Notes under the pieces: generated by a model
The model's database searches: none
Told to the model about the DNA's origin: nothing
The model's input: only the letters and a program-made list of their open reading frames with translations
Origin: an uncultured Candidatus Melainabacteria bacterium
GTDB lineage: Bacteria > Cyanobacteriota > Vampirovibrionia > Gastranaerophilales > Gastranaerophilaceae
Reading direction: 5' to 3'
DNA: 64,000 nucleotides
NCBI GenBank assembly: GCA_947364235.1
Contig: CANARY010000008.1
Coordinates: 1 to 64,000, forward strand
Made by a program: the position numbers and the translations under genes
In this document: in pieces, positions 1 through 32,616 of the stretch
Position numbering within the stretch: position 1 is the first letter of the stretch
Layout: each line of letters opens with the position of its first letter

Positions 1-3000
1 GCCATCATTCGTTAAGTCGCGAAACTCTGATTCGTTTTTTATTATTATGGTGCCGTCGTTATCAACATCTTTGGCAGTTACTTTGCCGTCAGAGGTTATA
101 CTGCCGGTGTTAGTGATATTTTCGCTTAATGTAAGCGTGCCACCTATTGTTGTAACAGCACTATTAGTTAGACTTGTACCGGAAACTTTACCGGAAACAT
201 CAAGTTGTCCCGCTGCGTTAATTGCCCCTTTTGAAATCAGGTCTTTACCAATAGCGGCAACACCTTCTGAACGGAAGCTGTTACCTGTAACATTTCCGCT
301 GACATTCATATTATTAGTTGTAACAATATTGCCGGAAGCTGTTAAGTTTTCTTTGATTATTGCAGCACCGTTATTTGTAAAGTCTTTACCTGATACGGAA
401 CCTTCTGTTTCAAGCCTGTTTGTTGTAAGAATATTACCGGTAGAAGTTAAATTACCGCCAATTACAGCATTACCTCTATTAGTAACTCCTGCTGCTGAGA
501 CATCTCCTGCAGCATTAAGAGCTCCTGTGGACTCAATTGTTCCTGAAGCCGCAAGATTTCCGCCGACAGTTGTTTTGCCGGTATTAGTTAAATTATGGAG
601 ATTTGCGTTATTATCAATTAACAAGCTGCCGGCATTAACTTTTACGTCACCGTTGCCGGTTAAAGTACCAATTGCATAGTTGCTGTTGGAATCACCGTTC
701 GCATTCAATACAGAGTTATCTGCAAGATTTAAGATATTAGTAATATCTGCTCCATTTGTGAATGTAAGAGAAGATGCAACATAAGTTGTTCCGTTGCCGG
801 ATACAGTTTTTCCAATTGTGCCTGAAAGGTTTAAAGTATTTTCATTCAAAATTGTTCCAGTTAAGTATTCGCCTTTTGAGGTTAATATACCGTAGTTGGT
901 AACACTTCCAATATTATTATTGTTGGTTAAATTTCCGCTGGCTTTAACAATAACTTTTTGAGAAATAACATTATTGTTAATAACATTACCAGCAATACCT
1001 AAAGAACCTTCACCGGTTACAACTTGAGACAAAGTTCCGCCGGTTAAAGTCAATATACCGTTATTTGTAACAGGTCCGCCGACATTAGAAGCATGAATCG
1101 TTAAATCTCCGACACCAGTAATCAAAATCTGCTGACCGATAGTTGCGTTTGCAATAACGTCGCCTACAATACTTGTTTTTCCAGTACCAGTAACAGTCTT
1201 GCTTAGAGTGCCTGCAGATAAAATCAAGTCTCCTGCATTATTAACCACTCCGCCAATATTGGAAGCATTTGTTGTAAAATCGCCGGAAGCTGCAATATCA
1301 ATAGCTTGAGAAATCAAAGCATTACCCTGTACATCACCCGTAATCGTTGTTTTACCAGCACCCGTAACAGTCTTAGATAAAGTTCCGCCGGTTAAAGTTA
1401 ATGTACCAGCGTTAGAAACATTACCGCCGATATAATTTGCATTTGAAGTTAACGCTCCTGATGTTTGAGCAATACTAATATTCTGAGCAATCGTTGCATT
1501 TGAAGTAACAGCTCCTGTTACATTTGTTGTACCGCCGCCTGTTACTGTCTTAGACAAAGTTCCGCCGGTTAAAGTTAAGTTATTATTATTAGTAACTGTA
1601 CCTTTAATATTTGATGCATTAGTATTAATTGTACCAGCATTTGTTATTACACCGGTATTAGAGCCAAGAGTTGAATTATTGGTTAATGTAACACCATTAT
1701 TTATAGTTACCGCCTGATTTATTCCTGCACTATTTGTTGTGCTGCCAGAAATTGTAGTTGAGCCTGTTCCGCTGACAACCTTGTTCAAAGCTCCGCCGGT
1801 TAATGTTAAACGTCCTTCATTTGAAACATTTCCGCCGACAAGATTAGAAGCTATTGTTAAAGCCCCGGTACTCTTTGCAATATTAATCGCCTGGTTTATA
1901 GCAGCATTTGAAGATACTGTACCAGTTACATTTGTAGACCCGCCTCCAGAAACTGTTTTTCCAAGAGTTCCGCCGGTTAATGTCAAATTATTGTTATTTG
2001 TTACTGTGCCTTTAATATAAGAAGCATTTGTATTAATTATTCCAGCATTTGTAATAATACCGTTATCTGAACCTATATTCGCATTGTTTGTCAAAGTCAC
2101 ATTTGAATTGACATTTAACTTCTGGTTAATGCCAGCACTATTTGTTGTATTGCCAGTAATTGTAGTCGTACCACTTCCGCTTACAGCTTTTGACAAAGTT
2201 CCGCCGCTCAAAGAAAGGGCATTGTTGTTTGTAACAGTACCTTTGATATTCGAAGCACTTGTATTAATTGTACCAGCGTTTGTTATAACACCGGTGTTTG
2301 AACCTAATGCAGCATTGTTGGTTAAAGTTACTCCGCTGTTTACTGTCACAGCTTGATTAATCCCGCCGGTATTTGTTAAGCTTCCTGTAATTGTCGTTGA
2401 ACCGGCACCGCTTACAGTTTTATTCAATGTACCGCCTGTAAGTTTTAGTTTGCCGGCATTTGATACTGCACCGCCGACATTACCGGCTGCAATTGTCAAA
2501 TCACCTGTATTGGCTGCAATATTAATAGCTTGAGAAATTGCTGAATTTGATGTTACTGTTCCGGTTACATTTGTTGTACCTGTTCCTGAAACAGCTTTTG
2601 CTAAAGTTCCGCCGGTTAATGTCAAATTATTATTGTTTGTTACAGTGCCTTTGATATTTGATGCACTTGTATTTATTATACCTGAGTTTGTAATTGCACC
2701 GGTGTTTGAACCTAATGCAGCGTTGTTTGTTAATGTTACTCCGCTGTTTATTGTCACAGCTTGATTAATACCGCCTGTATTTGTCAAGTTTCCAGTAATT
2801 GTTGTTGAACCTGCGCCGCTTACAGCTTTGTTTAATGTGCCTCCAGTAAGTTTTAGCTTGCCGGCATTTGATACTGCACCGCCGACATTACCGGCACCAA
2901 TAGTTAAATCTCCAGCTGCTGCTATTGAAATAGCCTGAGAAATTGCAGAATTTGATATTACTGCACCAGTTACATTTGTTGTACCTGTTCCCGAAACAGC

Positions 3001-6000
3001 TTTGCTTAATGTACCGCCTGTCAAGGTCAAATTATTGTTGTTTGTAACAGTACCTTTAATATTTGATGCATTAGTATTAATTGTACCTGCGTTTGTTATT
3101 ACACCAGTACTTGAACCAAGAGCTGCATTGTTGGTTAAAGTTACTCCGCTGTTTACTGTCACAGCTTGGTTAATTCCGCCTGTATTTGTTAAGTTTCCGG
3201 TAATTGTTGTTGAACCGGCTCCATTTACAGCTTTGTTTAACGTACCGCCGCTTAAATTCAACTTACCGGCATTTGAAACATTTCCGCCGACATAAGCTGC
3301 ATTAGTAGTTAAAGTACCAGCTGTAGTTATTAAAATAGCTTGATTTATAGCAGCATTCGAAGTAACTCCGCCTGTTATATTTGTCGTACCTGCTCCGCTG
3401 ATAGTCTTACCTAACGTACCGCCGGTTAAATAAATGTTACCAGCATTGGCTACATTACCGCCTACATTGCCGGCATTGATGGTCAAACCGCCGGCATTAG
3501 TAATATTAATGCCTTGATTTATCGCTGAATTTGATGTTACAGAACCAGTTACGTTTGTTGTTCCTGCCCCGCTGATAGTCTTACCTAAAGTACCGCCGGT
3601 TAAATAAATGTTACCAGCATTGGTTACATTGCCGCCTACATTGCCGGCATTGATAGTCAAACCGCCGGCTGTTGTAATCGAAATTGCCTGAGATATCGCA
3701 GAATTAGATGTCACAGCTCCAGTTATACTTGTTGAACCTGCGCCGCTTACTACTTTATTTAAAGTACCGCCGTTTAAAGTCAATGTGCCAGCGTTAGATA
3801 CATTACCGCCAATATTAGATGCGCTGGAAGTTAAACCGCTGTTTACAGCAATATTAATTGCCTGATTGATTGCAGAATTTGATGTTACACTGCCAGAAAT
3901 ATTTGTTGTACCACTGCCGCTTATTGCTTTGCCCAATGTACCGCCGTTTAAATTCAATGTACCTGTGTTTGTAACAGTACCTTTGATATTCGAAGCACTT
4001 GTATTAATTGTACCAGCGTTTGTTATAACACCGGTGTTTGAACCTAATGCAGCATTGTTGGTTAAAGTTACTCCGCTGTTTACTGTCACAGCTTGATTAA
4101 TCCCGCCGGTATTTGTTAAGCTTCCTGTAATTGTCGTTGAACCGGCACCGCTTACAGTTTTATTCAATGTACCGCCTGTAAGTTTTAGTTTGCCGGCATT
4201 TGATACTGCACCGCCGACATTACCGGCTGCAATTGTCAAATCACCTGTATTGGCTGCAATATTAATAGCTTGAGAAATTGCTGAATTTGATGTTACTGTT
4301 CCGGTAATTTTGGTAGTACCAGCCCCTGTAACAGTCTTAGATAAAGTGCCTCCGTTTAAAGTTAATGTACCAGCATTAGATACATTACCACCAATGTTTC
4401 CAGCCCCGATTGTCAAATTACCAGCAGAAGTTATAGCAATTGCTTGTGAAATTGCAGAGTTTGATGTCACAGCTCCAGTTACATTTGTTGTTCCTGCTCC
4501 AGTAATTGTTTTGGCTAAAGTTCCGCCATTTAAGTAAATATTACCAGCATTGGTTACATTACCGCCTACATTGCCGGCATTGATGGTCAAACCTGCTCCG
4601 GTAATAATAGAAATTGCTTGTGAAATTGCAGAATTTGATGTTACTGAACCAGAAATTTTAGTTGTACCGCTGCCGCTTACAGCTTTTGCTAAAGTACCGC
4701 CGGTTAAATTTAAAGTACTATTATTTGTAACTGTACCTTTAATATTTGATGCACTTGTATTAATTGTACCGGAGTTTGTTATTACACCAGTATCTGAACC
4801 TAACGCAGCGTTGTTAGTCAGCGTTACACCGCTGTTAATAGTTACTTTCTGATTAATTCCGCCAGAGTTGGTTAAATTACTTGTTATTGTTGTAGTACCG
4901 CTGCCAGTTACTGATTTTGACAAAGTTCCGCCGTTCAAGTTCAAAGCATTGGTATTTGTTACATTACCTTTGATATTCGTTGCACTTGTATTAATTGTAC
5001 CAGCGTTTGTTATAACTCCTGTATTTGAACCTAATGCAGCGTTGTTTGTTAATGTCACTCCGCTGTTTACTGTTACAGCTTGATTTATGCCGGCACTATT
5101 TGTTGTATTGCCTTTTAATGTTGTTTTACCGGTTCCTGAAATAACTTTGCTTACCGTTCCGCCGGAAAGATTTAAATTACCAGCATTTGTCACATTACTT
5201 GTAATACCATTTGCTGACATGTTAGCTGTTCCTGACGCGCCAAGTGTCAATGTGCCGTTAACTTTTGCTGTATCAGAAAGGTTCAAAGTACCATTGTTAA
5301 CATTAACAGTGCCCTGAGTAATTGACTTATTGTTGTTCATTGTCAGAGTTGAACCGCCGTTAATATTCATTGTACCAGTACCGGAAATTGCAGTGCCGAT
5401 GGTGTTTGTTCCCCCGGTTACGTTCAAAGTGCCCGCATTTTTTATTGCTGCATTTGAGTTTGTTGAGTTTAAGTTAATATTATTAATATTTGCTACACCG
5501 CCGGATGCGTTGTTTACAACAGAACCTTCACTGTTCACTGCATTAGTAATGTTAACATTATTCAATGTCAATGTCTTCCCTGAAGATACTTCAAAACCGG
5601 TCTTGCCGTTCATGTTCAATGTTGACTTATTATTTCCGTTTGCTACACCGGATACTGTTGAATTACCTTTGGTTGCGCCTAGATTGTCTGTCAATGTATA
5701 AGTATTTGATGCGTCTGCGAACTTGAATGTCTTTGCGTCTGTTGTGTCAAGCTGGTTCCAAAGCTTCAACGTATCGCCTTGAATGCTGTAACCGTTGCCA
5801 GATATTTCAGAAGTGGTTGTGTATTTGATACTGTCATTAGTTGTATTCGTTGTTGCAAGACTTAACTGACCATACACTTTTACTATCTGGTCTAATTGTG
5901 AATAAACAGTATCCCAATTTGTCAGAGCTTTGATTTCATCTTTTTCAGCAGTTTCTGTTTCTTTTAAAAGCTGCCTGTACATCAAAGAAGAGTTAACATC

Positions 6001-9000
6001 CAAACGAACACTGCTTCCAGAAGCATTTTTAATAACCTGTACAGTTATAGAACCATCTTCTAAAGGAATACCTGTTACATCAACTTTATCGATATAAACA
6101 GTACCTGAACCGCTGTTAATTGTAAGCGTATCAGCTTTTTTATTAGCAAGGTCAACATCAAGCTTCCAGTTTGTACCATAAGATGAGGAATAAAGAGAAT
6201 TAATATTGTAATTATTAATCTTTTCATCCTGTAAATTAACAGTACCACCCTGAGCATTAAAGCTTGAAGTTTTAAATGTATCAGTCCCAAAAGTTAAATT
6301 ACCGCTATTCAAAATTGTTCCAGCAGTTTTAACCTGACCGTTTAAGAAAATGTTACCGGTACTATCACCTTGCAAATACAAACGATATGAAGATGATGCA
6401 GCATTAATATTATCATCAAACTTGATTGAACCATTATTCTGAGCTGTCAAAGTAACACTACCGTCATTTATATAAATAGCCTCAGCTTCTTTAGCTCCGC
6501 TTCCTGACTGAACATAGTTACCTGAAAATTCTGTTGCAGCATTGTCAGCAATGATATTCAAATTATCATAAGAAGTATAAATCGCGCCGCCGTGAGCCGT
6601 TCCGGAAGCAGATTTTGCGTAATTATTTTTAAAACTGGTATTTTTAATTGTAAGAGGTCTATTAATAATATAAATTGCACCACCTAGTGCGTCGGTATGG
6701 GCATCAGCATAATTACCTGTAAATATAGAGTTTTGAATACCATTAGTAATTGTACTCGTATTGTAAATAGCACCGCCATTAGCAACTGCAGATGTTGATT
6801 TTACATAATTACCGGAGAAAGTACTATTGTTAATACCATTTATGTTAGCCATATTATAAATACTACCGCCATAAACTGAACTCTCTGCTGTAGCATAATT
6901 ATTTTTAAAAGTACCAGATATTGTACCTATAGTATTATAATTATAAATCGCGCCGCCATATGCACCAGTCTTACCAGAAGCATAGTTATCAGTAAAGTTT
7001 CCGGTAATATTACCAATATTTGAATAACTGCCGCTATTATTGAATATAGCTCCGCCATTTGCAGCATAATTAGTTGACTCAACATGGTTGCGATTAAAAT
7101 TACCCGTAATTGTACCAATTTTATTTTGGTTATAAATTGCACCGCCGCTTGATTCAGAAGATCCTTTTACATAGTTGCCGGAAAAATTACCTGAAATATT
7201 TCCTATACCATAAGAACTATTACCGTAACTATAATAACTGTTATAAATTGCACCGCCGTTAGCACTATTACTTCCAGATACAGCATAGTTGCCTATAAAA
7301 TCTGCCCCAATGTCACCAATACTACCATTACTGCTGTAAACAACATTATAAATTGCACCGCCATAGGCACCTCCCGAAGAAGCTGTTACATGGTTATTAT
7401 TGAATTCTGAGCCTGTAATACTATCAATATATGATTGATAATTGTATATAGCTCCACCTGCAGCTATATGACTACTACTACTTGTAGAAGTAGTTACAGC
7501 ATAGTTATCCTTAAACTTGCCGGATATAGAAGTAATTCTTGCACTATTATTGTTAAAAATAGCGCCGCCATGAACTTGTTGTACAGAGTTTGCATAGTTG
7601 CCGGTAAAATCACCTTTAATAGCACCAATCTGTGCATAGTTGCCCTTATTATATATCGCACCGCCAAGAGCTGTACCGAGCTTTGTATCAGTATAGTTAC
7701 TTGTAAAATTACCGGTAATATCACCAATCTTAGACCCGTTAAAAATAGCGCCGCCAAAAGCCAAGCTATAAGAGTCTTCACCATCACCATCTCTGGTAGT
7801 TACATAGTTGCTGTTAAAATCTCCAATAATATTACCGATTCGTTTTTCATAACTGGTGCTTGATGAACTTTGATTTCCATTGTAGATTGCACCGCCCATC
7901 GCTTCACAGCCTGCTTTTGCCCAGTTACCGGTAAAACTGCCCGTTATATCACCAATTCTGGAATACCAGTTGTTAGAATTTCTATAATGATTGTACAACG
8001 CACCGCCATAAGCATAAGTTTTTGCGTAATTAGAGGTACCTGCACTTCCCCCCTGAGCTGTAGCTAAAGCATAGTTACCGGTAAAATTACCGGTAATATT
8101 TCCCATCTCTTTATCAGCACCTTCATACATTATAGCTCCGCCATAAGCGTAAGCTGTTGCATTTGCATATTCACTGTAATCGTAACTAGTAGATTCACTA
8201 GTAGATGTTGAACTATCAGCTGTGGCTGATATACTGCTTATATAAGTAGATGAACCATCTTTCCAACGATGATAATAACCACCATCACTATTACTATCAT
8301 AAGAACCACTTGTAGATGCAGAAGCTGAAAGATTCACCTCGAAAGTTTCTTCTTCAGTTACATATTCGCGTTTATCATTATCCCAATACGTACTTGTGTG
8401 TGTAAGAGTATACGATTTTGACGCACTTGCACTAGCTGAACCAGCTGTAACAGTTGCATTACCACTATACTCGTTACTTGTACCATGGATTGACGTACCG
8501 CCTTTTGCATCAGCATGAGCATAGTTTCCAGTAAAATCACCCGTTATATTTCCCATAGAAGTCGATGCATAAATAGCACCTCCTCCAGCCTTTGCAGTTG
8601 CACTGGTATCTGCATAAGTACTACAACTTGCGTCTGCAGAAGCTGATGCTCTTGCTGTAGCAGATGCTGAACCATCGTCATTTGTATCAGAAGCTGTACC
8701 CGCAGTTGCGTGAGCATCACCTGCATGAGCTTCTGCATAACCACCTTTTGCATAACCGCCGCGAGCATTAGATTCTACATAATTGTTTACAAAATTACCT
8801 TTTATATTCCCGCCGCTTGTAGAACTATTAGCAACAGCTCCACCATAAGCATTTGACTCAGCAGTTGCATTTGCATTAGCACTTGCATACGCATCCGCAT
8901 TTGCAGACGCACTGCCGGTACTTGATTCATCGAAATCATCAGAAGCATAAGTATAATCAGAACCTGCTTTTGCAGTTCCGCCGCTAATAGTCTGAGTTAA

Positions 9001-9747
9001 ATGTGAACCAACAAAATCTGATTGAATATCCGCACTTGAATTACTAACCGCACCGCCGTAATTTGTAACACTCATACTTGCAGAAGCACTGCCATAATTT
9101 GTGCCTGAATAATCTGTTGTTCCGCCATTTTGATTGATAGTCGTATTTACTCTGAACACTTTATTTGTGACAGCTTCTTGTGTAGCAGAAGTAGCCCGTG
9201 TAGTCACATTTGTATAGCCAGACGGAGCTGTATAAGTATATTTCATATACTTTGTCTGACCATTTGGAAGGTTCAATTTAACAGTATCAGTACCTGCAGA
9301 AGCAACTTCACTCCATTTTATACTAGAAGCAGTTCCTGCATTTGCAGTATTTAAATTGATTTTCCAGTACTGAGTGGTTATAGTTCCATCAGCATTAACC
9401 TTACTTGTCTTATAATGATAATCCTGAGCTGTACCCTCAACAACAGTATACAAACTGCCGGCAAAACCCGTAGCAGTACCTTTTACCTCCTTATTTGCCC
9501 TGCCGGTTCTTATATTTACCCCAGTTTGTTTTTTAGCCTTATTAATATGAGTATTTATGACTTCATTAATTCCGCCTTCATTGTCCGAAGTACGGCTTGT
9601 TGCAGCAAATTCAACAGCAGCTGATTCCTGCCCGTCCCCGATAAAACAGAGACCGGCTAGTGCTGCTATTACGATTTTTCTTGCTGCGCAATCCTTCGCT
9701 TGAGGTTTTTCCTCTTTTGCTGCAACATTGACTTTATCTTTACCCAT
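1..9747 (-). CDS. Giant repeat-rich exported adhesin with Pmp-like repeats (partial)
   Basis: One open frame runs from an ATG at 9747 to the left edge (3,249 codons, no stop in the stretches I read), so the C-terminus is missing. The N-terminus has a long charged n-region and then a hydrophobic stretch (IVIAALAGLCFIG), like an autotransporter signal. Residues about 300-1090 carry many GGAIYN...F(T/N/S)GNY units, matching the GGA[ILV] and FxxN signature of chlamydial polymorphic membrane proteins. From about residue 1500 onward there are tandem Asn/Thr/Gly-rich units ending in LTGGTL-x-K, the haemagglutinin style of beta-helix passenger. A surface adhesin or autotransporter passenger is inferred; whether a beta-barrel follows cannot be seen. 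All plus-strand open frames across this stretch are shadows. Confidence 0.85.
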   Translation of the reverse strand, partial: MGKDKVNVAAKEEKPQAKDCAARKIVIAALAGLCFIGDGQESAAVEFAATSRTSDNEGGINEVINTHINKAKKQTGVNIRTGRANKEVKGTATGFAGSLYTVVEGTAQDYHYKTSKVNADGTITTQYWKINLNTANAGTASSIKWSEVASAGTDTVKLNLPNGQTKYMKYTYTAPSGYTNVTTRATSATQEAVTNKVFRVNTTINQNGGTTDYSGTNYGSASASMSVTNYGGAVSNSSADIQSDFVGSHLTQTISGGTAKAGSDYTYASDDFDESSTGSASANADAYASANANATAESNAYGGAVANSSTSGGNIKGNFVNNYVESNARGGYAKGGYAEAHAGDAHATAGTASDTNDDGSASATARASASADASCSTYADTSATAKAGGGAIYASTSMGNITGDFTGNYAHADAKGGTSIHGTSNEYSGNATVTAGSASASASKSYTLTHTSTYWDNDKREYVTEEETFEVNLSASASTSGSYDSNSDGGYYHRWKDGSSTYISSISATADSSTSTSESTSYDYSEYANATAYAYGGAIMYEGADKEMGNITGNFTGNYALATAQGGSAGTSNYAKTYAYGGALYNHYRNSNNWYSRIGDITGSFTGNWAKAGCEAMGGAIYNGNQSSSSTSYEKRIGNIIGDFNSNYVTTRDGDGEDSYSLAFGGAIFNGSKIGDITGNFTSNYTDTKLGTALGGAIYNKGNYAQIGAIKGDFTGNYANSVQQVHGGAIFNNNSARITSISGKFKDNYAVTTSTSSSSHIAAGGAIYNYQSYIDSITGSEFNNNHVTASSGGAYGGAIYNVVYSSNGSIGDIGADFIGNYAVSGSNSANGGAIYNSYYSYGNSSYGIGNISGNFSGNYVKGSSESSGGAIYNQNKIGTITGNFNRNHVESTNYAANGGAIFNNSGSYSNIGNITGNFTDNYASGKTGAYGGAIYNYNTIGTISGTFKNNYATAESSVYGGSIYNMANINGINNSTFSGNYVKSTSAVANGGAIYNTSTITNGIQNSIFTGNYADAHTDALGGAIYIINRPLTIKNTSFKNNYAKSASGTAHGGAIYTSYDNLNIIADNAATEFSGNYVQSGSGAKEAEAIYINDGSVTLTAQNNGSIKFDDNINAASSSYRLYLQGDSTGNIFLNGQVKTAGTILNSGNLTFGTDTFKTSSFNAQGGTVNLQDEKINNYNINSLYSSSYGTNWKLDVDLANKKADTLTINSGSGTVYIDKVDVTGIPLEDGSITVQVIKNASGSSVRLDVNSSLMYRQLLKETETAEKDEIKALTNWDTVYSQLDQIVKVYGQLSLATTNTTNDSIKYTTTSEISGNGYSIQGDTLKLWNQLDTTDAKTFKFADASNTYTLTDNLGATKGNSTVSGVANGNNKSTLNMNGKTGFEVSSGKTLTLNNVNITNAVNSEGSVVNNASGGVANINNINLNSTNSNAAIKNAGTLNVTGGTNTIGTAISGTGTMNINGGSTLTMNNNKSITQGTVNVNNGTLNLSDTAKVNGTLTLGASGTANMSANGITSNVTNAGNLNLSGGTVSKVISGTGKTTLKGNTTNSAGINQAVTVNSGVTLTNNAALGSNTGVITNAGTINTSATNIKGNVTNTNALNLNGGTLSKSVTGSGTTTITSNLTNSGGINQKVTINSGVTLTNNAALGSDTGVITNSGTINTSASNIKGTVTNNSTLNLTGGTLAKAVSGSGTTKISGSVTSNSAISQAISIITGAGLTINAGNVGGNVTNAGNIYLNGGTLAKTITGAGTTNVTGAVTSNSAISQAIAITSAGNLTIGAGNIGGNVSNAGTLTLNGGTLSKTVTGAGTTKITGTVTSNSAISQAINIAANTGDLTIAAGNVGGAVSNAGKLKLTGGTLNKTVSGAGSTTITGSLTNTGGINQAVTVNSGVTLTNNAALGSNTGVITNAGTINTSASNIKGTVTNTGTLNLNGGTLGKAISGSGTTNISGSVTSNSAINQAINIAVNSGLTSSASNIGGNVSNAGTLTLNGGTLNKVVSGAGSTSITGAVTSNSAISQAISITTAGGLTINAGNVGGNVTNAGNIYLTGGTLGKTISGAGTTNVTGSVTSNSAINQGINITNAGGLTINAGNVGGNVANAGNIYLTGGTLGKTISGAGTTNITGGVTSNAAINQAILITTAGTLTTNAAYVGGNVSNAGKLNLSGGTLNKAVNGAGSTTITGNLTNTGGINQAVTVNSGVTLTNNAALGSSTGVITNAGTINTNASNIKGTVTNNNNLTLTGGTLSKAVSGTGTTNVTGAVISNSAISQAISIAAAGDLTIGAGNVGGAVSNAGKLKLTGGTLNKAVSGAGSTTITGNLTNTGGINQAVTINSGVTLTNNAALGSNTGAITNSGIINTSASNIKGTVTNNNNLTLTGGTLAKAVSGTGTTNVTGTVTSNSAISQAINIAANTGDLTIAAGNVGGAVSNAGKLKLTGGTLNKTVSGAGSTTITGSLTNTGGINQAVTVNSGVTLTNNAALGSNTGVITNAGTINTSASNIKGTVTNNNALSLSGGTLSKAVSGSGTTTITGNTTNSAGINQKLNVNSNVTLTNNANIGSDNGIITNAGIINTNASYIKGTVTNNNNLTLTGGTLGKTVSGGGSTNVTGTVSSNAAINQAINIAKSTGALTIASNLVGGNVSNEGRLTLTGGALNKVVSGTGSTTISGSTTNSAGINQAVTINNGVTLTNNSTLGSNTGVITNAGTINTNASNIKGTVTNNNNLTLTGGTLSKTVTGGGTTNVTGAVTSNATIAQNISIAQTSGALTSNANYIGGNVSNAGTLTLTGGTLSKTVTGAGKTTITGDVQGNALISQAIDIAASGDFTTNASNIGGVVNNAGDLILSAGTLSKTVTGTGKTSIVGDVIANATIGQQILITGVGDLTIHASNVGGPVTNNGILTLTGGTLSQVVTGEGSLGIAGNVINNNVISQKVIVKASGNLTNNNNIGSVTNYGILTSKGEYLTGTILNENTLNLSGTIGKTVSGNGTTYVASSLTFTNGADITNILNLADNSVLNANGDSNSNYAIGTLTGNGDVKVNAGSLLIDNNANLHNLTNTGKTTVGGNLAASGTIESTGALNAAGDVSAAGVTNRGNAVIGGNLTSTGNILTTNRLETEGSVSGKDFTNNGAAIIKENLTASGNIVTTNNMNVSGNVTGNSFRSEGVAAIGKDLISKGAINAAGQLDVSGKVSGTSLTNSAVTTIGGTLTLSENITNTGSITSDGKVTAKDVDNDGTIIIKNESEFRDLTNDG
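2226..2565 (-). repeat. 340-bp exact direct repeat, copy 1
   Basis: Read base by base, this segment is identical to 3966-4305. The match ends at the mismatched bases 2225/3965 and 2566/4306. The offset is 1,740 bp (580 codons), so recombination between copies would delete or duplicate 580 residues in frame. Confidence 0.95.
3966..4305 (-). repeat. 340-bp exact direct repeat, copy 2
   Basis: Second copy of the exact 340-bp repeat (see 2226-2565). Neighbouring units have drifted, so this identity points to a recent duplication or gene conversion within the adhesin gene. Confidence 0.95.
6470..8830 (-). repeat. Pmp-like GGAIYN / FxxNY repeat region
   Basis: Within the adhesin, roughly fifteen or more units follow the pattern GGAIYN - variable - I(G/T)xI(T/S)GxF(T/S/N)xNY(A/V). 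In chlamydial Pmp proteins this pairing forms the rungs of a beta-helix. Two Ala/Ser-rich low-complexity insertions (around 8130-8540 and 8580-8760) interrupt the repeats. Confidence 0.7.
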
Positions 9748-9954
9748 ATTACACCTTGATAACTTCAATTTTTGCAAACATCACATAAACATTCATGCGT
9801 TACGAATGTTTACATGGGGTATTTACCTTGTTCATACTCTATATTTATATTATATCTTATTGTATATATTTTTCAAGTCATCCTTTTGTATGAAATCTTT
9901 TGATAATCTACATTTGAGCCTAATATAATTTACAAAAATTTCGTTTAAAATCCG

Positions 9955-10156: not shown

Positions 10157-10241
10157 GAAGTCAAGCCGCAAGCGGGTTTGAGGGCAATTAGGCTTGTAAA
10201 AATTTCTTAAATCTAGTATCATGAAAATAAAAAGGCTTATC

Positions 10242-11291
10242 ATGCCGAAAAAAAAGTTAAAAAAAATCACCCCGCAAAACTATCTTAAATATTATTATGA
10301 TATCCCTTATGAAGGCAAAACTTCTGCTGGAAAACCATTAAGAAAGCTTAAAAACATTACCTGTCCTTATAGAGGCGTTAAAATAATACCTAGTGAAACA
10401 ATAAAAAGTTTTGAAAAAGGTCTGGCTAGATGCAGAACTGCAATTGATGCAGTTGAATTGCTTGCTCCATATCAAGAGAATATGCTTTCTGTGGAAAAAT
10501 CTATTTATGCAATTTTCAAAGATTTCGCTCTTTTAAACCCCGAAGACAATCTTCAAAATTGTCTTCAAATGATTAAAACAAATTGCCTTACAAAGCTAAA
10601 GCTTGAAGAAATGGAAGTACTTGACGACGTAGACATATTAACCCGCAAGCTTTCTCCGCAAACTGCATTAAAGATAAGAGCAAAAACAACAAAATGCAGG
10701 CAAATTATTTTAAGCAGCTCCACACACGATACTTTCAAACGTAAAACATTTTTAAACTCGCTGGAAGAAATTATTCCAAAAGAAAATGAGAGAGAAATAT
10801 TCAACGACATAAAGAACAAAGCGCTTTTCCTTCCAACTTCGGAGAGCAGCAGAAACGCGTTTATCGTAAAATACTCTAAACGAACCCAAATGGAAATTAT
10901 CCGCCGTATTTTTATCGCTTCCACAGGTTCTATCGAACACGTTACCCCAGCTTCAAATGGAGGACTCAACACAATTGGAAACTTTCTTCTAACAACTGCA
11001 AGCGGAAACCGCTACCGCGAGAATATGCCGTTATGTGAGTACATAAAAAGGCATCCGCAAATCCCTCTATACATGCAGATGTACATTGATGACATCATAA
11101 AAGAGATTCATGCCGGAAACTTACAAGGAAACGAAACTTACCCATATAAAATAAAGAAAAAACTTTTTGAAGAATCTAAAGGAAGGATTATGATAAGCCT
11201 TTCAGCTTATAAATATTCTGAAGAAGAAGCAGCATTAGCCGTTGAAGCTTACGAACATAGATGGGAATTTAATAAATCAAGCGCACGATAA
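10242..11291 (+). CDS. HNH-endonuclease-like protein (degenerate)
   Basis: A 349-residue protein of unproven function. A stretch near residues 228-262 (IEHVTPASNGG, then GNFLL and NRYRENM) resembles the core of HNH nucleases (E/D-H, Asn, then N..R). Residues 41-45 read CPYRG, like a zinc knuckle CPYCG that has lost its second Cys, and no second Cys pair is present. The ATG at 10242 is preferred over that at 10221 because AAAGG lies 6 bases upstream. The 3' end overlaps the end of lrgB on the other strand by 23 bp. Nuclease activity is an inference only. Confidence 0.5.
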   Translation: MPKKKLKKITPQNYLKYYYDIPYEGKTSAGKPLRKLKNITCPYRGVKIIPSETIKSFEKGLARCRTAIDAVELLAPYQENMLSVEKSIYAIFKDFALLNPEDNLQNCLQMIKTNCLTKLKLEEMEVLDDVDILTRKLSPQTALKIRAKTTKCRQIILSSSTHDTFKRKTFLNSLEEIIPKENEREIFNDIKNKALFLPTSESSRNAFIVKYSKRTQMEIIRRIFIASTGSIEHVTPASNGGLNTIGNFLLTTASGNRYRENMPLCEYIKRHPQIPLYMQMYIDDIIKEIHAGNLQGNETYPYKIKKKLFEESKGRIMISLSAYKYSEEEAALAVEAYEHRWEFNKSSAR

Positions 11292-11937
11292 CAGGTGCAA
11301 TAATTACAGTCAAAATACCAACCACCACAAGCGCAAGAGTACTCATCACAACTTGTTTCGGTTTTCCTGTCTCGATACATTTACTTGTACCCAGCACATG
11401 GCTTGCTGCGCCAATAGCAAGTCCTATTGCAGCATCATCTTTAACCCCTATCAAATTCAAAATTTTATGACCAAAAACTGCTCCAAAAATTCCTGTCAAA
11501 ACAACAGTACAAGCTGTAAGCTCAGGAATTCCATGCAAGCTCTTTGAAACTTCAATGGCAATAGGAGCAGTAACTGACTTTGGCAGCATTGAAACAACAA
11601 GAGAATGTTCAGCATGACATACATTTCCAATAAAGTTAGTACTCAAAATTGCAATCACAACAGCAAATACAAAAGCTGTATAGATTATCCGTTTATTTCG
11701 TACCAGCAGGTTTAAGTTTTTATAAAGAGGATACCCGAGCGAAATTGTAGCCGGAGCAAGTAAAAACGTCAAAAATGAAACAGACTGTTTATACTCGATA
11801 TAATTAATATGAAATAGCTTTAAAAGCAGAATAATAGCAGCTCCTGCAATCAGAATAGGAGAAAGCAAGCTTATTTTCAGCTTTTGTGAAAATTTAAATA
11901 AAGCAACAGTTACAGCAATTCCCAGAGGATTAATCAT
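11269..11937 (-). CDS. lrgB: LrgB/CidB-family membrane protein
   Basis: A 222-residue multi-pass inner-membrane protein with the family hallmark LPKSVTAPIA and a long run of hydrophobic helices, matching LrgB/YohK/CidB in length and sequence. Family members work with LrgA/CidA; they are linked to control of murein hydrolase activity, cell lysis and, in some bacteria, small-acid or pyruvate transport. It overlaps lrgA by 8 bp and is the last gene of an M48 protease-lrgA-lrgB operon. The substrate is not evident from sequence. Confidence 0.85.
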   Translation of the reverse strand: MINPLGIAVTVALFKFSQKLKISLLSPILIAGAAIILLLKLFHINYIEYKQSVSFLTFLLAPATISLGYPLYKNLNLLVRNKRIIYTAFVFAVVIAILSTNFIGNVCHAEHSLVVSMLPKSVTAPIAIEVSKSLHGIPELTACTVVLTGIFGAVFGHKILNLIGVKDDAAIGLAIGAASHVLGTSKCIETGKPKQVVMSTLALVVVGILTVIIAPVIVRLIY

Positions 11938-12304
11938 TTTTCTGCTCCTTATTCAAGAACTTCAGTCCGTGCTCAACAAAAAGCCCAATACTCACAATAA
12001 TTACAGTAGTTGTAACAAAAATAACGAGCAAAATCGAAAGCCAGTTTTTAATAAGAATATCTTTATAAACAATGAGCCCCACAACAAATGGAACAAACAG
12101 AACAGCCATATTCTTAAGCAAAAAATTTGAAGCAGATTCAACCCACTCTTCTTTGATTATTCCTGTAAATAAAGCCATCGTAAAAAGAATTAACCCTAAA
12201 ATTGCAGGTGGAAAAGAAATACCGGTAAGTTTTACTAAATAAAAACTTACATAATAAATAAAAAATAATATTCCAAACCCTGCTAGAAACTTAAGCTTTT
12301 GCAT
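11930..12304 (-). CDS. lrgA: LrgA/CidA-family holin-like protein
   Basis: A 124-residue protein with four hydrophobic segments and the family pattern around FPPAILGLILFTMAL, the usual size for LrgA/CidA. It probably forms the membrane partner of LrgB encoded just downstream (8-bp overlap). Its ATG overlaps the stop of the M48 protease gene by one base (TAATG), so translational coupling is likely. Confidence 0.85.
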   Translation of the reverse strand: MQKLKFLAGFGILFFIYYVSFYLVKLTGISFPPAILGLILFTMALFTGIIKEEWVESASNFLLKNMAVLFVPFVVGLIVYKDILIKNWLSILLVIFVTTTVIIVSIGLFVEHGLKFLNKEQKND

Positions 12305-13542
12305 TACAAAGCATCAACCTGTTCTTGAATATGTTTATCTGAAGGTGCAAGTTTCTGTGCATAGTTTACGAATGTCTTTGCATTATCCAAATATTTCTTT
12401 TTCCCAGTTTTCTTGTACAAGCATTCTTCTGTATAAGAAAAATAAAGATAAGCAACAGGGTTCTTTCTATCAAGTTCCAGCAATTTGCTAAAATATTCTT
12501 CTGCTTTTTCAAATTCTCCGTTCAAATAAGATTTGTAAGCATATCTTGTATACAAATCAACAGGAGTTTCTGTGCGATAAGCTTCTGCTTGCGTTTTAGC
12601 AGTATTTTTTTCAATAACAAGAGACTTTCTGTCAGAAGACAATCTTGGCTTAAGAACTTCTGATTTATAAATATTGTAAACACCTTGTTTTTTCATTTCA
12701 TCTTCCATAAAATATTTTCTGGATTCTGCGTAATTTTCTAAACGGTGTTTTCCTGTTGGATGAGTATAAGAAAACTCTGAATCATTACTCATAGTATAAA
12801 TAAAAGACAAAGTTTCTTTTGCTTTTGACAAATCATAACCAGCTTTTACTGCTAATCTTGCCCCCTCAGTATCTGCAGCATATTCCATTTTTTTAGAGTC
12901 AGAAACATAAGCTTTTATAGCAATTGCTCTAAGAGCGCTGTCTTCAGGGAAAGAATCAATTTTATGCATATACTTTGCCGCTCTCACTTGATGTCCCAGT
13001 ATTGAATGCGCCATTTCATGACCAATCAAAAGCGCAATAGCATCATCGTTAGCAGAAAGAGAGTCAAAAGCCCCGGCATGAATTGTTATACAATTTGTTT
13101 CACTGGAATAAGCATTAAACGAATTGTCTTTAGAAAAAACTATTCTCCAGTTCATAAAATCCAAATTATTTGCACGGATTATTTTTTCTGCTATTCTATA
13201 TACTTTATAAAAATCTGCTCCATAAGCCTGAACATTGTAATCATCGGCTTTTTTACCGCATAAAGCTGATTTTATCTTTGAATAAATAAGGTTATCAGCT
13301 GCATTTTTTGCATTTAACTTACTTTGCTCAATAGTACTATATCCGCCAAGATGAATAAGTTTCGGGTCTTTTATATTTTTATTAAAAACATTGTCTTCTG
13401 TATAATCCGCATAATACCTATCAGTGGTACTATACTTTTGAGCTTTTTCCATTTCGCGAATTTGAATTTTAGCATAATCTTTTGCATAAACTGAATTATT
13501 AAACACAAAACACAATACAATAGACCAAATAACTTTTTTCAT
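12304..13542 (-). CDS. Exported M48-family zinc metalloprotease with C-terminal TPR-like region
   Basis: About 412 residues. The start is set at 13542 (MKKVIWSIVLCF, a signal peptide with AGGAG just upstream) rather than the longer frame from 13593. The zinc motif HEMAH lies near residues 175-179 with the third-ligand region EYAADTEGARLAVKAGYD about 40 residues later, as in BepA/YggG-type M48 peptidases. The C-terminal part (LNGEFEKAEEYFSKLLELD) looks like TPR helices. In BepA, TPRs dock outer-membrane assembly clients, so an envelope quality-control role is plausible. It is the first gene of an operon with lrgA and lrgB. Confidence 0.85.
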   Translation of the reverse strand: MKKVIWSIVLCFVFNNSVYAKDYAKIQIREMEKAQKYSTTDRYYADYTEDNVFNKNIKDPKLIHLGGYSTIEQSKLNAKNAADNLIYSKIKSALCGKKADDYNVQAYGADFYKVYRIAEKIIRANNLDFMNWRIVFSKDNSFNAYSSETNCITIHAGAFDSLSANDDAIALLIGHEMAHSILGHQVRAAKYMHKIDSFPEDSALRAIAIKAYVSDSKKMEYAADTEGARLAVKAGYDLSKAKETLSFIYTMSNDSEFSYTHPTGKHRLENYAESRKYFMEDEMKKQGVYNIYKSEVLKPRLSSDRKSLVIEKNTAKTQAEAYRTETPVDLYTRYAYKSYLNGEFEKAEEYFSKLLELDRKNPVAYLYFSYTEECLYKKTGKKKYLDNAKTFVNYAQKLAPSDKHIQEQVDAL

Positions 13543-13674
13543 ACATTCTCCTTTTACTAAAAATAAGATAACATCTTTGTAAGAAAATTTCAATATATGG
13601 AAATTTCAATTACTTTATTTGGTATATTTAATTCAAAATAAAAAATGAACGCGGAATGGACATAACAAAAATAA

Positions 13675-27895: not shown

Positions 27896-28031
27896 TATAT
27901 CCGCCTTTCTGCAGAATAGCTCTGCACAAAAAGATTAAAAAAAACGAACATAATTTTTATCCCGCAAGAAGATATTAGTCAACTAGCTAGATTATGGTAT
28001 AATAACAATATAATTATCAGGAGTATGAAAA

Positions 28032-28604
28032 TTGTTTGAAATAATAAAAAAGTGTAACATAAAATCAAAAGCTATTTTAGAAGACAACAGATTTAAAATT
28101 GATTTAGATTTTTTTCAAAATTTAACAAAAACAAGTGTAATTTTAGATTATGAAATAAAAAATATAAAACTCAAAGATATTAAAAGATCTTGGAAAAATA
28201 AAACAATTAGATTAAATAAAACTCACCCTTACTTATATCTCCAAGGTCACGTAAAACAATATGAAAAATATTGTATTGAAAATAAAAAGCTTAGCAATTT
28301 CGAAATGAGCAAAGCCAGGTTTGATAACTTAATCAAAGATATCACTGAAAATTCATTCAATGAGCTTTATATGCCTATAATTAATTCACAAACTAATGTA
28401 ATTCTTGATGGCCAGCATAGATGTTGCGTTTTGTATCATTTATATGGTGAAAATTACACAATACAATGCTTATCCATAACAATTGTTCCTAAAAAGTATA
28501 AATATACTCTTTGGCAGCAAATTTTCTCTATAAGAAACGCTCATGGAAAACAACACAAAATTTTAACAATCCTTGGATTTAAATTAAAATTCAGACGTAA
28601 ATAA
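28032..28604 (+). CDS. ParB/Srx-fold-like protein, TTG start
   Basis: A 190-residue protein read from a TTG at 28032, with AGGAG about 8 bases upstream; an upstream ATG at 28025 gives only a four-codon frame. Near residue 120 is MPIINSQTNVILDGQHRCCV, matching the DGxHR core of ParB-like nuclease/ATPase folds that occur as stand-alone enzymes in surface-sugar and mobile loci. The C-terminus is very basic. It lies at the start of the accessory region. The function is not known. Confidence 0.5.
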   Translation: MFEIIKKCNIKSKAILEDNRFKIDLDFFQNLTKTSVILDYEIKNIKLKDIKRSWKNKTIRLNKTHPYLYLQGHVKQYEKYCIENKKLSNFEMSKARFDNLIKDITENSFNELYMPIINSQTNVILDGQHRCCVLYHLYGENYTIQCLSITIVPKKYKYTLWQQIFSIRNAHGKQHKILTILGFKLKFRRK

Positions 28605-28646
28605 AGAACTATCAGCTGCTTACAGATTGGATGTTTTTATACAAAA

Positions 28647-28682
28647 AAATTACAGAGGATGGGGTTCCATCCTCTGTAATTT
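28647..28682. terminator. Perfect 16-bp hairpin after ParB-like gene
   Basis: Arms AAATTACAGAGGATGG and its exact complement flank a GGTT loop. It lies 43 bp after the ParB-like stop, so it may be that gene's terminator, although only a short T-run follows. It also lies where the mobile element could begin. Confidence 0.6.
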
Positions 28683-28821
28683 ACCACAGAATTGACGAGT
28701 TCAGAACTTGGTTGCTTGAGAATGTTGCATAATTTTCATTTTTTACAATACTCAATATATTTTATTATCTTTTAAAAATATTGTATAATAAGAAAATAAA
28801 ATTTTATTCAAGGAGGGAATT

Positions 28822-29076
28822 ATGGGTGCAATGTATTTTTTACCGCAAAATGATATTACAACACAAGAATTAGCAACAATAATGGGGTTTGTTACTGTTG
28901 GTTTAATTAATAATATTGAACAACGCAAAGAAGAACTTTTGCAAAGGAAACAAGAATGTTATCCTTGCATAAGGATAGCAGACAGAAGTTTAAATCCAAA
29001 TAAAACATTTATATTATCAGAAGATATTTATAATACTATGCCTATTGCATTAAAAAGGCATTTTTCTGCATTTTAA
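28822..29076 (+). CDS. Small hypothetical protein
   Basis: An 84-residue protein I do not recognise. A strong AAGGAGGG lies upstream of the ATG, which supports real translation. It contains one short hydrophobic stretch (LATIMGFVTVGLINNI) and a CYPCIR pair. It precedes a co-directional membrane-anchored protein by 43 bp. Confidence 0.5.
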   Translation: MGAMYFLPQNDITTQELATIMGFVTVGLINNIEQRKEELLQRKQECYPCIRIADRSLNPNKTFILSEDIYNTMPIALKRHFSAF

Positions 29077-29119
29077 ATTTGTTTGTTATTATTCTGTAAT
29101 TCACATTAAAGAGGTATTA

Positions 29120-29614
29120 ATGATAAATTGGGATGCTGTAAGTGGAATTGGAAGTGTATGTGCAAGTATTGCAACATTCTGTGCTGTAATTGTGTCATTG
29201 TGGCAAACTCGTCTAAAAACTAGAAAAAGTTTACAATTTGAATTTTCACCATCTGTTATTGGAGTTGGTGATATTGGAGTAAAGGATGAACCATATGTAT
29301 CACTATCTGTTACAAACATATGTCAAAGAAAAATTAAAATTGTAAGTTGGGGAATTATTTTAAAATATGGACATAAAGCTTGTTGTTGTACTAGCACTAT
29401 GGGTTGTTTAGGGGATAATTTACCAACATTGCTAGAACCAGATGTAACAGCTAATTTATTTACTATTAGAAAACCATTTTATCAAACTATACAAAAATAT
29501 AATTCTGAAAAATTTCTTGATAAAAATTCAAAACTTAAAATGTATGTTACAGATGCTTCAGGTTCATTATATGTATACACTACTAAATGTAAAATAAAAG
29601 ATTTTCTAAAATAA
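29120..29614 (+). CDS. Hypothetical membrane-anchored protein
   Basis: A 164-residue protein with one N-terminal membrane helix (GIGSVCASIATFCAVIVSLW) and a beta-rich remainder beginning LQFEFSPSVIGVGDIG. This layout, one TM helix then a small beta domain, is common among accessory proteins near defence genes. It contains a Cys cluster (ACCCTST and later CLG). GAGG lies upstream of the ATG. It ends 12 bp before the convergent HEPN gene. Confidence 0.5.
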   Translation: MINWDAVSGIGSVCASIATFCAVIVSLWQTRLKTRKSLQFEFSPSVIGVGDIGVKDEPYVSLSVTNICQRKIKIVSWGIILKYGHKACCCTSTMGCLGDNLPTLLEPDVTANLFTIRKPFYQTIQKYNSEKFLDKNSKLKMYVTDASGSLYVYTTKCKIKDFLK

Positions 29615-29625
29615 AGCTCTAAGTA

Positions 29626-30747
29626 TTATACATTATCCTCATAACCTCTGCCTTGGCAAAATTCACACCCTTCTAGGTAACTATTTCTCAAATCACCTCC
29701 CAGTTGTAGTTCATTGCACCAACTGCAACTTCGTACCGACACAGAACCTGCTCCGCAATTTGTACATGTAAACACACCATTGATGTATGCAACAGAATTT
29801 CTAGTTCCACAATATGCACAATTTATAATATCTTCTTGCTTATCAGAAAAATCCAAAGTATCTAAAATATTTCTAGAATTATCATTATATTTTTGTTTAA
29901 CACATGCCAAAAAGTCATTGAAATTTATTTTATGACCACAATTAAGATTTATATCACAAGAATATTTTAAATCGTATACGTTTAACTTTGAAATTTTGTT
30001 ACAATTAGGGCATTCAATTTCTATCATACGTTCTTTAAATACTTGTCCACAAACAACGCAATTAGCATAAAATATATCTTTTATATGTGAATTAGTTATT
30101 CTTAATGACTCTTTTTTACAATTATTGCAAGTTCTATATTCAACATTATTTTTGCTTTTGTCTTTTTGTATGTCGTTTTTTATTGCCTCATACCTGATAT
30201 TATAATAATTTTTAAGTTGTACGATTTTAGCTTCAAACCTAATTATAGAATTAATAACTCTATCATTATCTTTGTATATATTATCCCAAAAGGAAAGCAA
30301 GCTACGTAATCTATACCAAGCTTTTAGAATTTGAATTGCAAGTTTTGTCTTTATTTCTTTCAAATCTTCTTTTTTACACTTGTTAATATCATGATAGAAA
30401 TGAATTAAACGATTTCGTTCTTTTCTTATTTCATCAAAAGCCTTAATATCATCCTCATGTATTTGAGGTTCATCAAACGCATTTTTTAGAACATATATTA
30501 GTTCATCAAATTGTAATGTTGAAGATGTGCCATCTTTAAAGTTACTTAGATTTGGTTTTTTGCCAACTATTAAACTCCAGTGTTCAGCAATTAAGCGTGC
30601 TTTTAAAAAGAGTTCAATAGCACAAAAGAAATTTATAATAGAATATTTTGTATTATTTTCAAATTCATCTGCACTTTTATTTAAAAAATCAATAGCATTT
30701 ATAAGAACACTATTTAATATTTCATTTGTATTTTTTGTTGCTACCAC
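29626..30747 (-). CDS. HEPN-like domain protein with tandem zinc ribbons
   Basis: A 373-residue protein. Residues about 1-150 are helical and contain NFFCAIELFLKARLIAEHW followed by RKERNRLIHFYHD, fitting the R-x4-H signature of HEPN ribonucleases. The C-terminal half has eight C-x2-C-type knuckles (CNNC, CVVC, CPNC, NCGH, CAYC, CTNC, CSWC, CEFC), enough for about four zinc ribbons. It starts with GTG inside the end of the AlbA_2 gene (26-bp overlap), so the two are coupled. A role as an RNase effector is inferred, not shown. Confidence 0.6.
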   Translation of the reverse strand: MVATKNTNEILNSVLINAIDFLNKSADEFENNTKYSIINFFCAIELFLKARLIAEHWSLIVGKKPNLSNFKDGTSSTLQFDELIYVLKNAFDEPQIHEDDIKAFDEIRKERNRLIHFYHDINKCKKEDLKEIKTKLAIQILKAWYRLRSLLSFWDNIYKDNDRVINSIIRFEAKIVQLKNYYNIRYEAIKNDIQKDKSKNNVEYRTCNNCKKESLRITNSHIKDIFYANCVVCGQVFKERMIEIECPNCNKISKLNVYDLKYSCDINLNCGHKINFNDFLACVKQKYNDNSRNILDTLDFSDKQEDIINCAYCGTRNSVAYINGVFTCTNCGAGSVSVRSCSWCNELQLGGDLRNSYLEGCEFCQGRGYEDNV

Positions 30748-31912
30748 TTAATCTTTTCCTTTTATTTTTTTGTAAACTTAAAAATTCATTTCTTAATCTC
30801 TGTGCAATATTTTCATTTTGTTCTAATAAGTATATCTTATTAGGACAAGTTATATCTTTATTTTCTTCGCTATTTCCACAGCCATCGTAGAAGAAAAAAT
30901 AATCCTTATAAATATCATATTGTGAATTTTTATTTATAATTTTTTGAACTAAATATTCAAAAGAATTTTTTATATTATAGAAGAAAGTTACTTGTCTATG
31001 ACAACCACCATCACTATAATTAAAGTCTATTTCATCAATAGTTTTTCCTTTATTTGATAAACTGGCATTATTAACAAAAACATGAATATCTTCATAGTTG
31101 TCAGGGTTATAGTATAACCAGTCAGTTTTAGGGTGTAATATATAATATCTACCTTTATCACAAATATATAAACTTTCTGTTTTTAGTATAGTAGTGTGAT
31201 ATTTATATCTAATTGATGTTTCATAAGAATTTCCTATAGAATGAGCAAAAACAGCATCTGCATGTTCATCGGGACTATAATCAGTCATATGATTAGGTAA
31301 TGTGTATTCGATTGTAAATTCAGGGAATGGAATATAATGCCATATACATGTTAATTCCAGTTCATTATAATTAAATCCCCAGTTATTATAATCTTTTACA
31401 TATATCTCTAATCGCTCTCTAGGTGATAATAATAGACCAAAACGCTCTCGCCACATATCCGCTATTTGACTTTCTGGTGTTGATTGGTCAACAGGAGTGT
31501 TTACAGAGCCATTCCTTGTATATACAACGCCAGCTATTATAGTTTTATTCTTTGTATTTATTCGTTTATCCTTCAATAAATAGTAGGGTCTATTAGAACT
31601 TTTTTTAATTATAATAATATCAATTTCATTATTTGAAATATTTAAAGTTTCAATTTTTACTGTTGGAATTCTATTAAAATTAGCAGTACTTAATAAATTA
31701 CATAGATTATCTTGCTTTAGACGATTTTCAGAAATATTACAAAATTTTTTATCTTCTTCATTATATCCAATGACTATATATCTATCAGATTTAGCATCTG
31801 AATTTGCCATACAAAGAATATCTAAAATTAGACAAGCTGTATCTTTGTACCATTCCTGCTTAAAATCCAAATAATCGCTTTCATTCTGTTGCACTAAATT
31901 TTCTAAATTCAT
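30722..31912 (-). CDS. AlbA_2 (Schlafen-type) domain protein
   Basis: A 396-residue protein. Residues about 8-130 fit the AlbA_2/divergent-AAA_4 putative nucleic-acid-binding domain: NESDYLDFKQEWY, a small helix, YIVIGYNEEDKKF and a conserved NRPYYLLKDK...VVYTRNGS stretch. The remaining 260 residues are aromatic-rich and unfamiliar. A TATAAT lies exactly six bases before the ATG with no Shine-Dalgarno, suggesting a leaderless mRNA. It follows hicB by 33 bp and overlaps the HEPN/zinc-ribbon gene; a sensor-effector pair is plausible. Confidence 0.65.
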   Translation of the reverse strand: MNLENLVQQNESDYLDFKQEWYKDTACLILDILCMANSDAKSDRYIVIGYNEEDKKFCNISENRLKQDNLCNLLSTANFNRIPTVKIETLNISNNEIDIIIIKKSSNRPYYLLKDKRINTKNKTIIAGVVYTRNGSVNTPVDQSTPESQIADMWRERFGLLLSPRERLEIYVKDYNNWGFNYNELELTCIWHYIPFPEFTIEYTLPNHMTDYSPDEHADAVFAHSIGNSYETSIRYKYHTTILKTESLYICDKGRYYILHPKTDWLYYNPDNYEDIHVFVNNASLSNKGKTIDEIDFNYSDGGCHRQVTFFYNIKNSFEYLVQKIINKNSQYDIYKDYFFFYDGCGNSEENKDITCPNKIYLLEQNENIAQRLRNEFLSLQKNKRKRLSGSNKKYK

Positions 31913-31918
31913 ACTGTA

Positions 31919-31924
31919 ATTATA
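31919..31924 (-). promoter_or_regulatory. -10 box of AlbA_2 gene, leaderless spacing
   Basis: TATAAT on the minus strand ends six bases before the ATG at 31912. No clear -35 is seen at 16-18 bp. With the usual 6-7 base distance to the start site, transcription would begin at the start codon. Confidence 0.45.
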
Positions 31925-31945
31925 ACTTAAATAATGTAATTCTAT

Positions 31946-32353
31946 TTATGCATTCGAAAATTTAGTATATAATTTTTTATTCTTTTTGTTTTTAGAATTA
32001 TTTTCTTCAACAAAATCGGTAAAAATATTAATTATTAATTTATTTAAACTTATATTTTCTATTTCGGCAATTTCTGCTAATGCTTGATGTATTGTAGCAC
32101 CTGTTCTCACATTAAAACTACCGCTATATGCTTTTTGTGGATTTTTGCCCAATTCTTTACAGGTTTCTAAATACTCATCAACCATTTCTTTAAAAGAATT
32201 TTCTAATTCTTCAATTGTATTACCCTCAAACATTATTAAATCATCAATAAACAAAATTTTTCCATAAAGAAATTTTTCGGTTAAATTATATTCAACAGAA
32301 CCAACATAATTTTTATATTTTAATACATTATTAGTTTTATCTTTCATAATCAT
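31946..32353 (-). CDS. hicB: HicB-family antitoxin
   Basis: About 135 residues. The N-terminal half is the degenerate RNase-H-like HicB fold (YVGSVEYNLTEKFLYGKILFIDD, MFEGNTIEELENSFKEMVDEYL). The C-terminal half has a ribbon-helix-helix-like stretch (GSFNVRTGATIHQALAEIAE) for DNA binding, followed by a Lys-rich tail. HicB binds and silences HicA and represses the operon. Either of two in-frame ATGs (32353 or 32347) could start it. It lies 2 bp after hicA. Confidence 0.85.
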   Translation of the reverse strand: MIMKDKTNNVLKYKNYVGSVEYNLTEKFLYGKILFIDDLIMFEGNTIEELENSFKEMVDEYLETCKELGKNPQKAYSGSFNVRTGATIHQALAEIAEIENISLNKLIINIFTDFVEENNSKNKKNKKLYTKFSNA

Positions 32354-32355
32354 AA

Positions 32356-32610
32356 TTATATTAACCCATTCCTTTCTAATTTTTCTATTATCTCATCGAT
32401 TATATAACTTTTGATAATATTTTTAGGATGAGGTTTATGGAACATTATTATATCATTATCTTTATTTTTAAACTTTTTTCTTGACCCACTTGTTTTACCT
32501 GTTGCAATTTCAACATAGCCATAAAACTTCATAATTTGTATAAGTTCTTCATACGTTAAATCTTTAGGTTTATTCAAAAATTTGTTTATTAATTTATCTA
32601 TTTTAGTCAT
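32356..32610 (-). CDS. hicA: HicA-family mRNA interferase toxin
   Basis: An 84-residue protein with the double-stranded-RNA-binding-like HicA fold. It has the GSRKKFKNKDNDIIMFHKPH segment, in which HKPHP is the family's usual motif, and a C-terminal helix. Its order (hicA before hicB) is the common one. There is no Shine-Dalgarno; TATTAT ends six bases before the ATG and TTGCAA lies 17 bp further upstream. The toxin cleaves mRNA when HicB is lost; here the module may stabilise the element or join its defence cargo. Confidence 0.85.
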   Translation of the reverse strand: MTKIDKLINKFLNKPKDLTYEELIQIMKFYGYVEIATGKTSGSRKKFKNKDNDIIMFHKPHPKNIIKSYIIDEIIEKLERNGLI

Positions 32611-32616
32611 ACTAAT

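Follow-up and report, generated by a model that had tools for sequence, protein, structure and literature searches.

Introduction

Type Va autotransporters reach the cell surface by signal-dependent export, insertion of a barrel, passage of the passenger and folding of the passenger from the membrane outward. The same secretion route has been described for the polymorphic membrane proteins (Pmps) of Chlamydia (PMC10715098), which comprise PmpA-I and are associated with the families PF02415, PF07548 and PF03797. Their beta-helical passengers are built of GGA[ILV]/FxxN rungs at least 27 residues long, with buried motifs and exposed loops (PMC10715098). In chlamydial proteins GGA is followed by FxxN after 14-18 residues and FxxN by GGA after 4-5, the latter gap being found in 57% of cases (PMC11166332). 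Pmp-like helices also occur in other bacteria, archaea and trichomonads (PMC10715098, PMC6701047).

Here we analyze a stretch of 64,000 nucleotides (the window; bases 1-64000 of contig C8) from a genome of 1.93 Mb in 12 contigs that is 99% complete. A preliminary description, made from the letters alone, rightly assigned this DNA to a probable gut member of the Vampirovibrionia. The organism belongs to the Gastranaerophilales, non-photosynthetic relatives of cyanobacteria that are frequent in animal guts and, with few exceptions, uncultured. Little is known about how these bacteria make contact with their surroundings, and a widespread family of barrel-anchored, adhesin-like proteins is a concrete candidate.

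Results and discussion

As the preliminary description had claimed, a single minus-strand frame covers the left 9.7 kb of the window; read from its ATG it runs uninterrupted for 3,249 codons (positions 1-9747), with no internal stop or frameshift (Table 1). Translation might instead begin at an in-frame TTG (9777), but AAGGTG precedes the ATG. The 3' end of the gene is absent because the frame is cut at base 1 of the contig, and a search for its continuation at all 24 contig ends of the assembly found none. Assembly failure at repeats is the simplest cause of this loss, since the nearest orthologue and other long frames of the family also run off their contigs inside repeats.

Table 1. Features of the giant Pmp-like gene, with positions given in the window.
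Feature	Residues	Position	Strand	Details
Shine-Dalgarno-like AAGGTG		9752..9757	(-)	4 bases upstream of ATG at 9747; from sequence
Giant Pmp-like protein coding frame		1..9747	(-)	3,249 codons; 3' end missing at contig end
Putative export signal	1-45	9613..9747	(-)	charged long n-region, hydrophobic core ~22-36; hydropathy and inspection
N-terminal region	46-230	9058..9612	(-)	185 residues; matched in one orthologue, G019
Pmp-type repeat region	231-1095	6463..9057	(-)	18 GGA[ILV], ~20 FxxN
Modelled beta-solenoid	534-1214	6106..8148	(-)	pLDDT 90.8, pTM 0.91
Middle module	1150-1420	5488..6300	(-)	in 14/79 barrel-bearing relatives, often several copies
T/N/G-rich tandem repeats	1524-2958	874..5178	(-)	units of 58-60 and 76-78 residues in alternation
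Divergent 3'-most repeats	3080-3249	1..510	(-)	unmatched

The protein begins with a lysine-rich stretch and, by inspection, a hydrophobic core of the kind found in export signals. The N-terminal region is 49% identical in the G019 orthologue (query residues 19-299), and residues 46-230 gave no significant match in barrel-bearing relatives. No relative was retrieved when public genome contigs were scanned with the N-terminus, and a Pfam search of the first 500 residues gave no hit with E values up to 10. A candidate N-terminal domain common to the barrel-bearing relatives was rejected: the giant protein did not score above shuffled controls and the orthologue reached only 11 bits.

Scans of the whole protein against Pfam and NCBIfam returned nothing, and it had to be searched in pieces. 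Residues 500-1149 matched the Chlam_PMP profile (PF02415) in ten stretches with 37.2 bits (cut-off 20.6, E 1.9e-9). This score depends on the piece, with 11 bits for residues 200-1149 and no match for the whole protein, presumably through the biased-composition correction of HMMER. The motifs themselves are far above expectation: in residues 201-1200, 2,000 shuffles gave a mean of 0.25 GGA[ILV] (maximum 3) and 3.4 FxxN (maximum 10), against 18 and 21 in the protein, and the extended forms GGAI[YF] and FxxNY occur 14 and 15 times (shuffle means 0.02 and 0.27). The NCBIfam model POMP_repeat did not match the Pmp piece, and PMP_M (PF07548) was found neither in the giant frame, where its expected site is off the contig, nor in the complete same-genome paralogue. 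Rungs are commonly 30-37 residues long, with long S/A/T-rich loops among the first ones. The distance from GGA to FxxN is mostly 12-17 residues and that from FxxN to GGA mostly 9-10. The preliminary description, which would have fallen had no PMP profile matched, was therefore right to recognize Pmp-type repeats and a very large protein, but it overstated the chlamydial link: the repeats are not specific to chlamydiae, which supply less than one third of PF02415 proteins (443 of 1,448; PMC11166332), and PF02415 exceeds its cut-off in 97 of 289 genomes sampled from the class Vampirovibrionia.

From an alignment that included six relatives, residues 534-1214 were predicted with high confidence to form an all-beta solenoid. 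In VIA-align the model reached Z scores of 14-19 to right-handed beta-helix proteins (pertactin 14.8, EtpA 17.2, Fap2 14.1). Foldseek found nothing in the PDB below E 0.001, nor any match to viral models; the likeness to beta-helices comes from VIA-align. The model predicts for this segment the beta-helical passenger of a type Va protein. Such a likeness with no close Foldseek match is in line with the observation that chlamydial Pmp rungs differ in detail from solved ones (PMC10715098).

The second half of the protein had been taken for a haemagglutinin-style passenger. Pfam and NCBIfam searches of this half gave no family above cut-off, whether TPS/haemagglutination or another repeat family, and it consists instead of 58- and 77-residue T/N/G repeats with DNA periods of 174, 231 and 405 bp. 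A search of 65 genomes of the genus retrieved no relative of the last 250 residues, and residues 3080-3249 (the last 170) had no match in those genomes or in 79 barrel-bearing relatives.

The genome encodes three other barrels, all part of other, intact genes. One paralogue (C2:56424-60269, 1,281 aa) joins a Pmp region, 37% identical to that of the giant protein over 653 columns, to a barrel that matches the autotransporter model TIGR01414 with 48 bits (cut-off 16). A second (C2, ~104.5-112 kb, 2,526 aa) carries a barrel of this type and T/N/G repeats that are 30% identical to those of the giant protein over 1,542 columns. The third (C4, ~16.3-19.7 kb, 1,117 aa) has some Pmp motifs and a barrel. 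The barrel of the first paralogue was modelled with 12 strands (pLDDT 74), and Foldseek placed autotransporters on top, led by the AIDA-I translocator (4mee, E 2.6e-14). It resembles the AIDA-I, EspP and BrkA barrels in these respects, but identity in the top structural matches is just 11-17%; the barrel sequence profile found no relative in the PDB. TIGR01414 matched 6 of 9 barrels aligned. PF03797, which misses most members of the family, had no match over the window's own genome, though TIGR01414 and a lineage profile find barrels there.

Barrel relatives were found in 325 stretches of public genomes, of which 79 barrel-bearing loci were kept for comparison. The named lineages are mostly Gastranaerophilales, Melainabacteria or Cyanobacteria, with several gut or rumen sources; two stretches filed as Muribaculaceae are probably mislabelled bins. 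Within the window's genus the barrel occurs in 44 of 65 genomes, and a single genome has as many as five matches. Of the 79 loci, 62 have four or more GGA motifs in the frame of the barrel. The gap from GGA to FxxN is 12-18 in 611 of 727 cases in the relatives, whereas that from FxxN to GGA is 9-10 in 356 of 700 and chlamydial-like (4-5) in 114. POMP_repeat, which was not matched by the giant protein, is present in two relatives (L118, 68.6 bits; L115, 34.1 bits).

The nearest orthologue, from another species (L053, G019:C40), is 45% identical over the first 956 columns, joins the same two halves and also runs off its contig inside repeats of the same kind. A complete relative of 1,686 aa with a barrel at its end (L141) is colinear with the giant protein from the Pmp region through the middle module (37% over 925 columns for residues 581-1444, E 3e-90). 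At three loci (L115, L118 and L120) a single frame encodes a Pmp region, the middle module, T/N/G repeats and a barrel. In L056, which belongs to a different genus of this order, Pmp motifs are combined with T/N/S repeats and a barrel within 2,778 residues. Because the same join recurs in L141, L115, L118, L120 and L056, a barrel is the expected end of the giant protein and its layout is no assembly chimera.

Two further loci contain Pmp-like frames that are very long for bacteria, at least 10,596 residues (L183-L184, G315:C13:21333-53120) and at least 8,459 residues (L187-L188, G202:C7:323690-349066); neither has masked bases and both leave their contigs in T/N/G repeats. A frame of 26,690 codons in G315:C11 was discarded as an artefact of 72,000 masked bases. 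One MAG (CALVEH010) has seven autotransporter loci (L136, L138, L143, L144, L149, L150 and L162) with nearly identical barrels. When L144 is compared with the other six, the ends show 88-97% identity over ~340 residues and the passengers diverge more, which suggests recombination or gene conversion among the copies.

We consider it probable that the giant frame represents most of a type Va-like autotransporter with a Pmp-type beta-helix tip, a T/N/G stalk and a likely binding role. The giant gene itself shows no barrel, as the contig ends first; its barrel is predicted from the paralogues and from the relatives that share its passenger modules, and export of the protein is likewise a prediction. 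The preliminary description had missed both the loss of the gene's end at the contig break and the barrel-bearing relatives. The surface role that it proposed is likely.

A different export route would be two-partner secretion, with the giant frame as a TpsA-like exoprotein that needs no barrel of its own. Such secretion is possible in this organism, as contig C6 encodes a TpsB-type transporter (L177:7862-9628, G000:C6; ShlB 97 bits, POTRA_2 62 bits, and POTRA). This orphan gene, flanked by a purA-like gene and respiratory-complex genes, has no large exoprotein partner nearby, and the giant frame's own barrel is unseen. TPS exoproteins such as FhaB and EtpA are also long beta-helical surface proteins, and EtpA is among the structural matches. 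An N-terminal TPS domain is nevertheless the defining feature of TpsA, and this domain (haemagglutination activity, PF05860) was not found in the first 500 residues with Pfam at E up to 10. Since all informative relatives of the passenger modules have their own barrel, we regard two-partner secretion of the giant protein as improbable. Natural truncation or decay of the gene, with no anchored product, would fit an assembly that is 99% complete and holds no continuation, but the 9.7 kb frame is intact behind a good start site. The orthologue with the same layout also stops at a contig edge inside repeats, and long homologous frames elsewhere leave their contigs inside such repeats, which points to assembly failure; we regard decay as improbable. 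It is very improbable that misassembly fused a Pmp-type gene to a T/N/G-repeat gene at about positions 5,200-6,300 of the window: the genome does have one paralogue of each kind, and repeats misjoin easily, yet L053 (in another species), L115, L118 and L120 contain the same join, and the paralogue identities of 30-37% are too low for a chimera.

The function of the rod is a separate matter. It might serve as a protective coat, in cell-cell spacing or in Ag43-like self-aggregation instead of host adhesion; self-associating Ag43, of the same fold class, appears in the structure lists, and the stalk has no predicted ligand site. Pmp-type loops and the variability of the family suit binding, but nothing is decisive against these other jobs, to which we assign a minor, though appreciable, chance. 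The likeliest job is probably that of a putative adhesin for host mucus or epithelium, a food particle or another microbe.

For the type Va-like autotransporter that we favour, the N-terminal signal would take the protein across the inner membrane, and a C-terminal 12-strand barrel, encoded beyond the contig end, would insert in the outer membrane and allow the passenger to pass to the surface. The passenger would then fold from the membrane outward into a long rod, with the T/N/G stalk nearest the membrane, followed by the middle module and with the Pmp beta-helix at the far end. The Pmp rungs would carry exposed variable loops, of which the S/A/T-rich insertions of the first rungs would be the most distal.

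Compared with chlamydial Pmps, the giant protein shares the GGA[ILV]/FxxN rungs, the PF02415 match and the beta-solenoid passenger, and its paralogues and relatives share the barrel; it is far longer, however, and has the extra T/N/G repeat stalk. The non-chlamydial Pmp-like beta-helices of Phycisphaerae, Methanobrevibacter and Trichomonas have the same motif pair and predicted beta-helical rungs of varying overall shape (PMC10715098, PMC6701047), but here the rungs are linked to an autotransporter barrel family expanded in one gut lineage. Pmp repeats outside Chlamydia were already known, and NCBI models name some members (POMP_repeat). Two features seem not to have been described before: the extent and modular build of the family in this lineage, and its usual gap of 9-10 residues from FxxN to GGA. 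In a literature search whose scope left out most subscription journals and preprints, no report was found that joined Gastranaerophilales with autotransporter or Melainabacteria with polymorphic membrane protein. On balance we favour the view that gut Gastranaerophilales possess an undescribed, lineage-wide family of modular Pmp-like autotransporters in multiple copies. In this view the family includes frames of more than 10,000 residues, has longer rungs than those of Chlamydia, exchanges entire passenger modules and diversified in parallel to the chlamydial Pmps. Such an independent set of Pmp-type beta-helices would help separate the structural features of chlamydial Pmps (the motifs) from those tuned for binding (the loops).

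Several other features of the window and genome were observed. Homologues of LrgB, LrgA and an M48 peptidase (11269-13593) share the strand of the giant gene, from which they are separated by an opposite-strand gene without a Pfam match (10221-11291). Two contigs of the assembly (G000:C7 and C12) start within flagellin-like genes (L072 and L077) whose N-terminal sequences are nearly the same, and multiple flagellin copies probably broke the assembly there. Near-identical coding sequence (EVGGEKGIDNVEAPNKTPIVLMPDINEENEK) is likewise found at the start of G000:C2 (L067) and the end of G000:C10 (L087), where a duplicated gene is the probable cause of the break. Finally, the window contains a low-GC island at positions 28000-40000, where GC is 24-30% compared with 32-40% elsewhere in the window. 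The island encodes a serine recombinase (38710-39876) and a Schlafen/AlbA protein (30722-31912), matches DUF3987 weakly and is probably an integrated mobile element.
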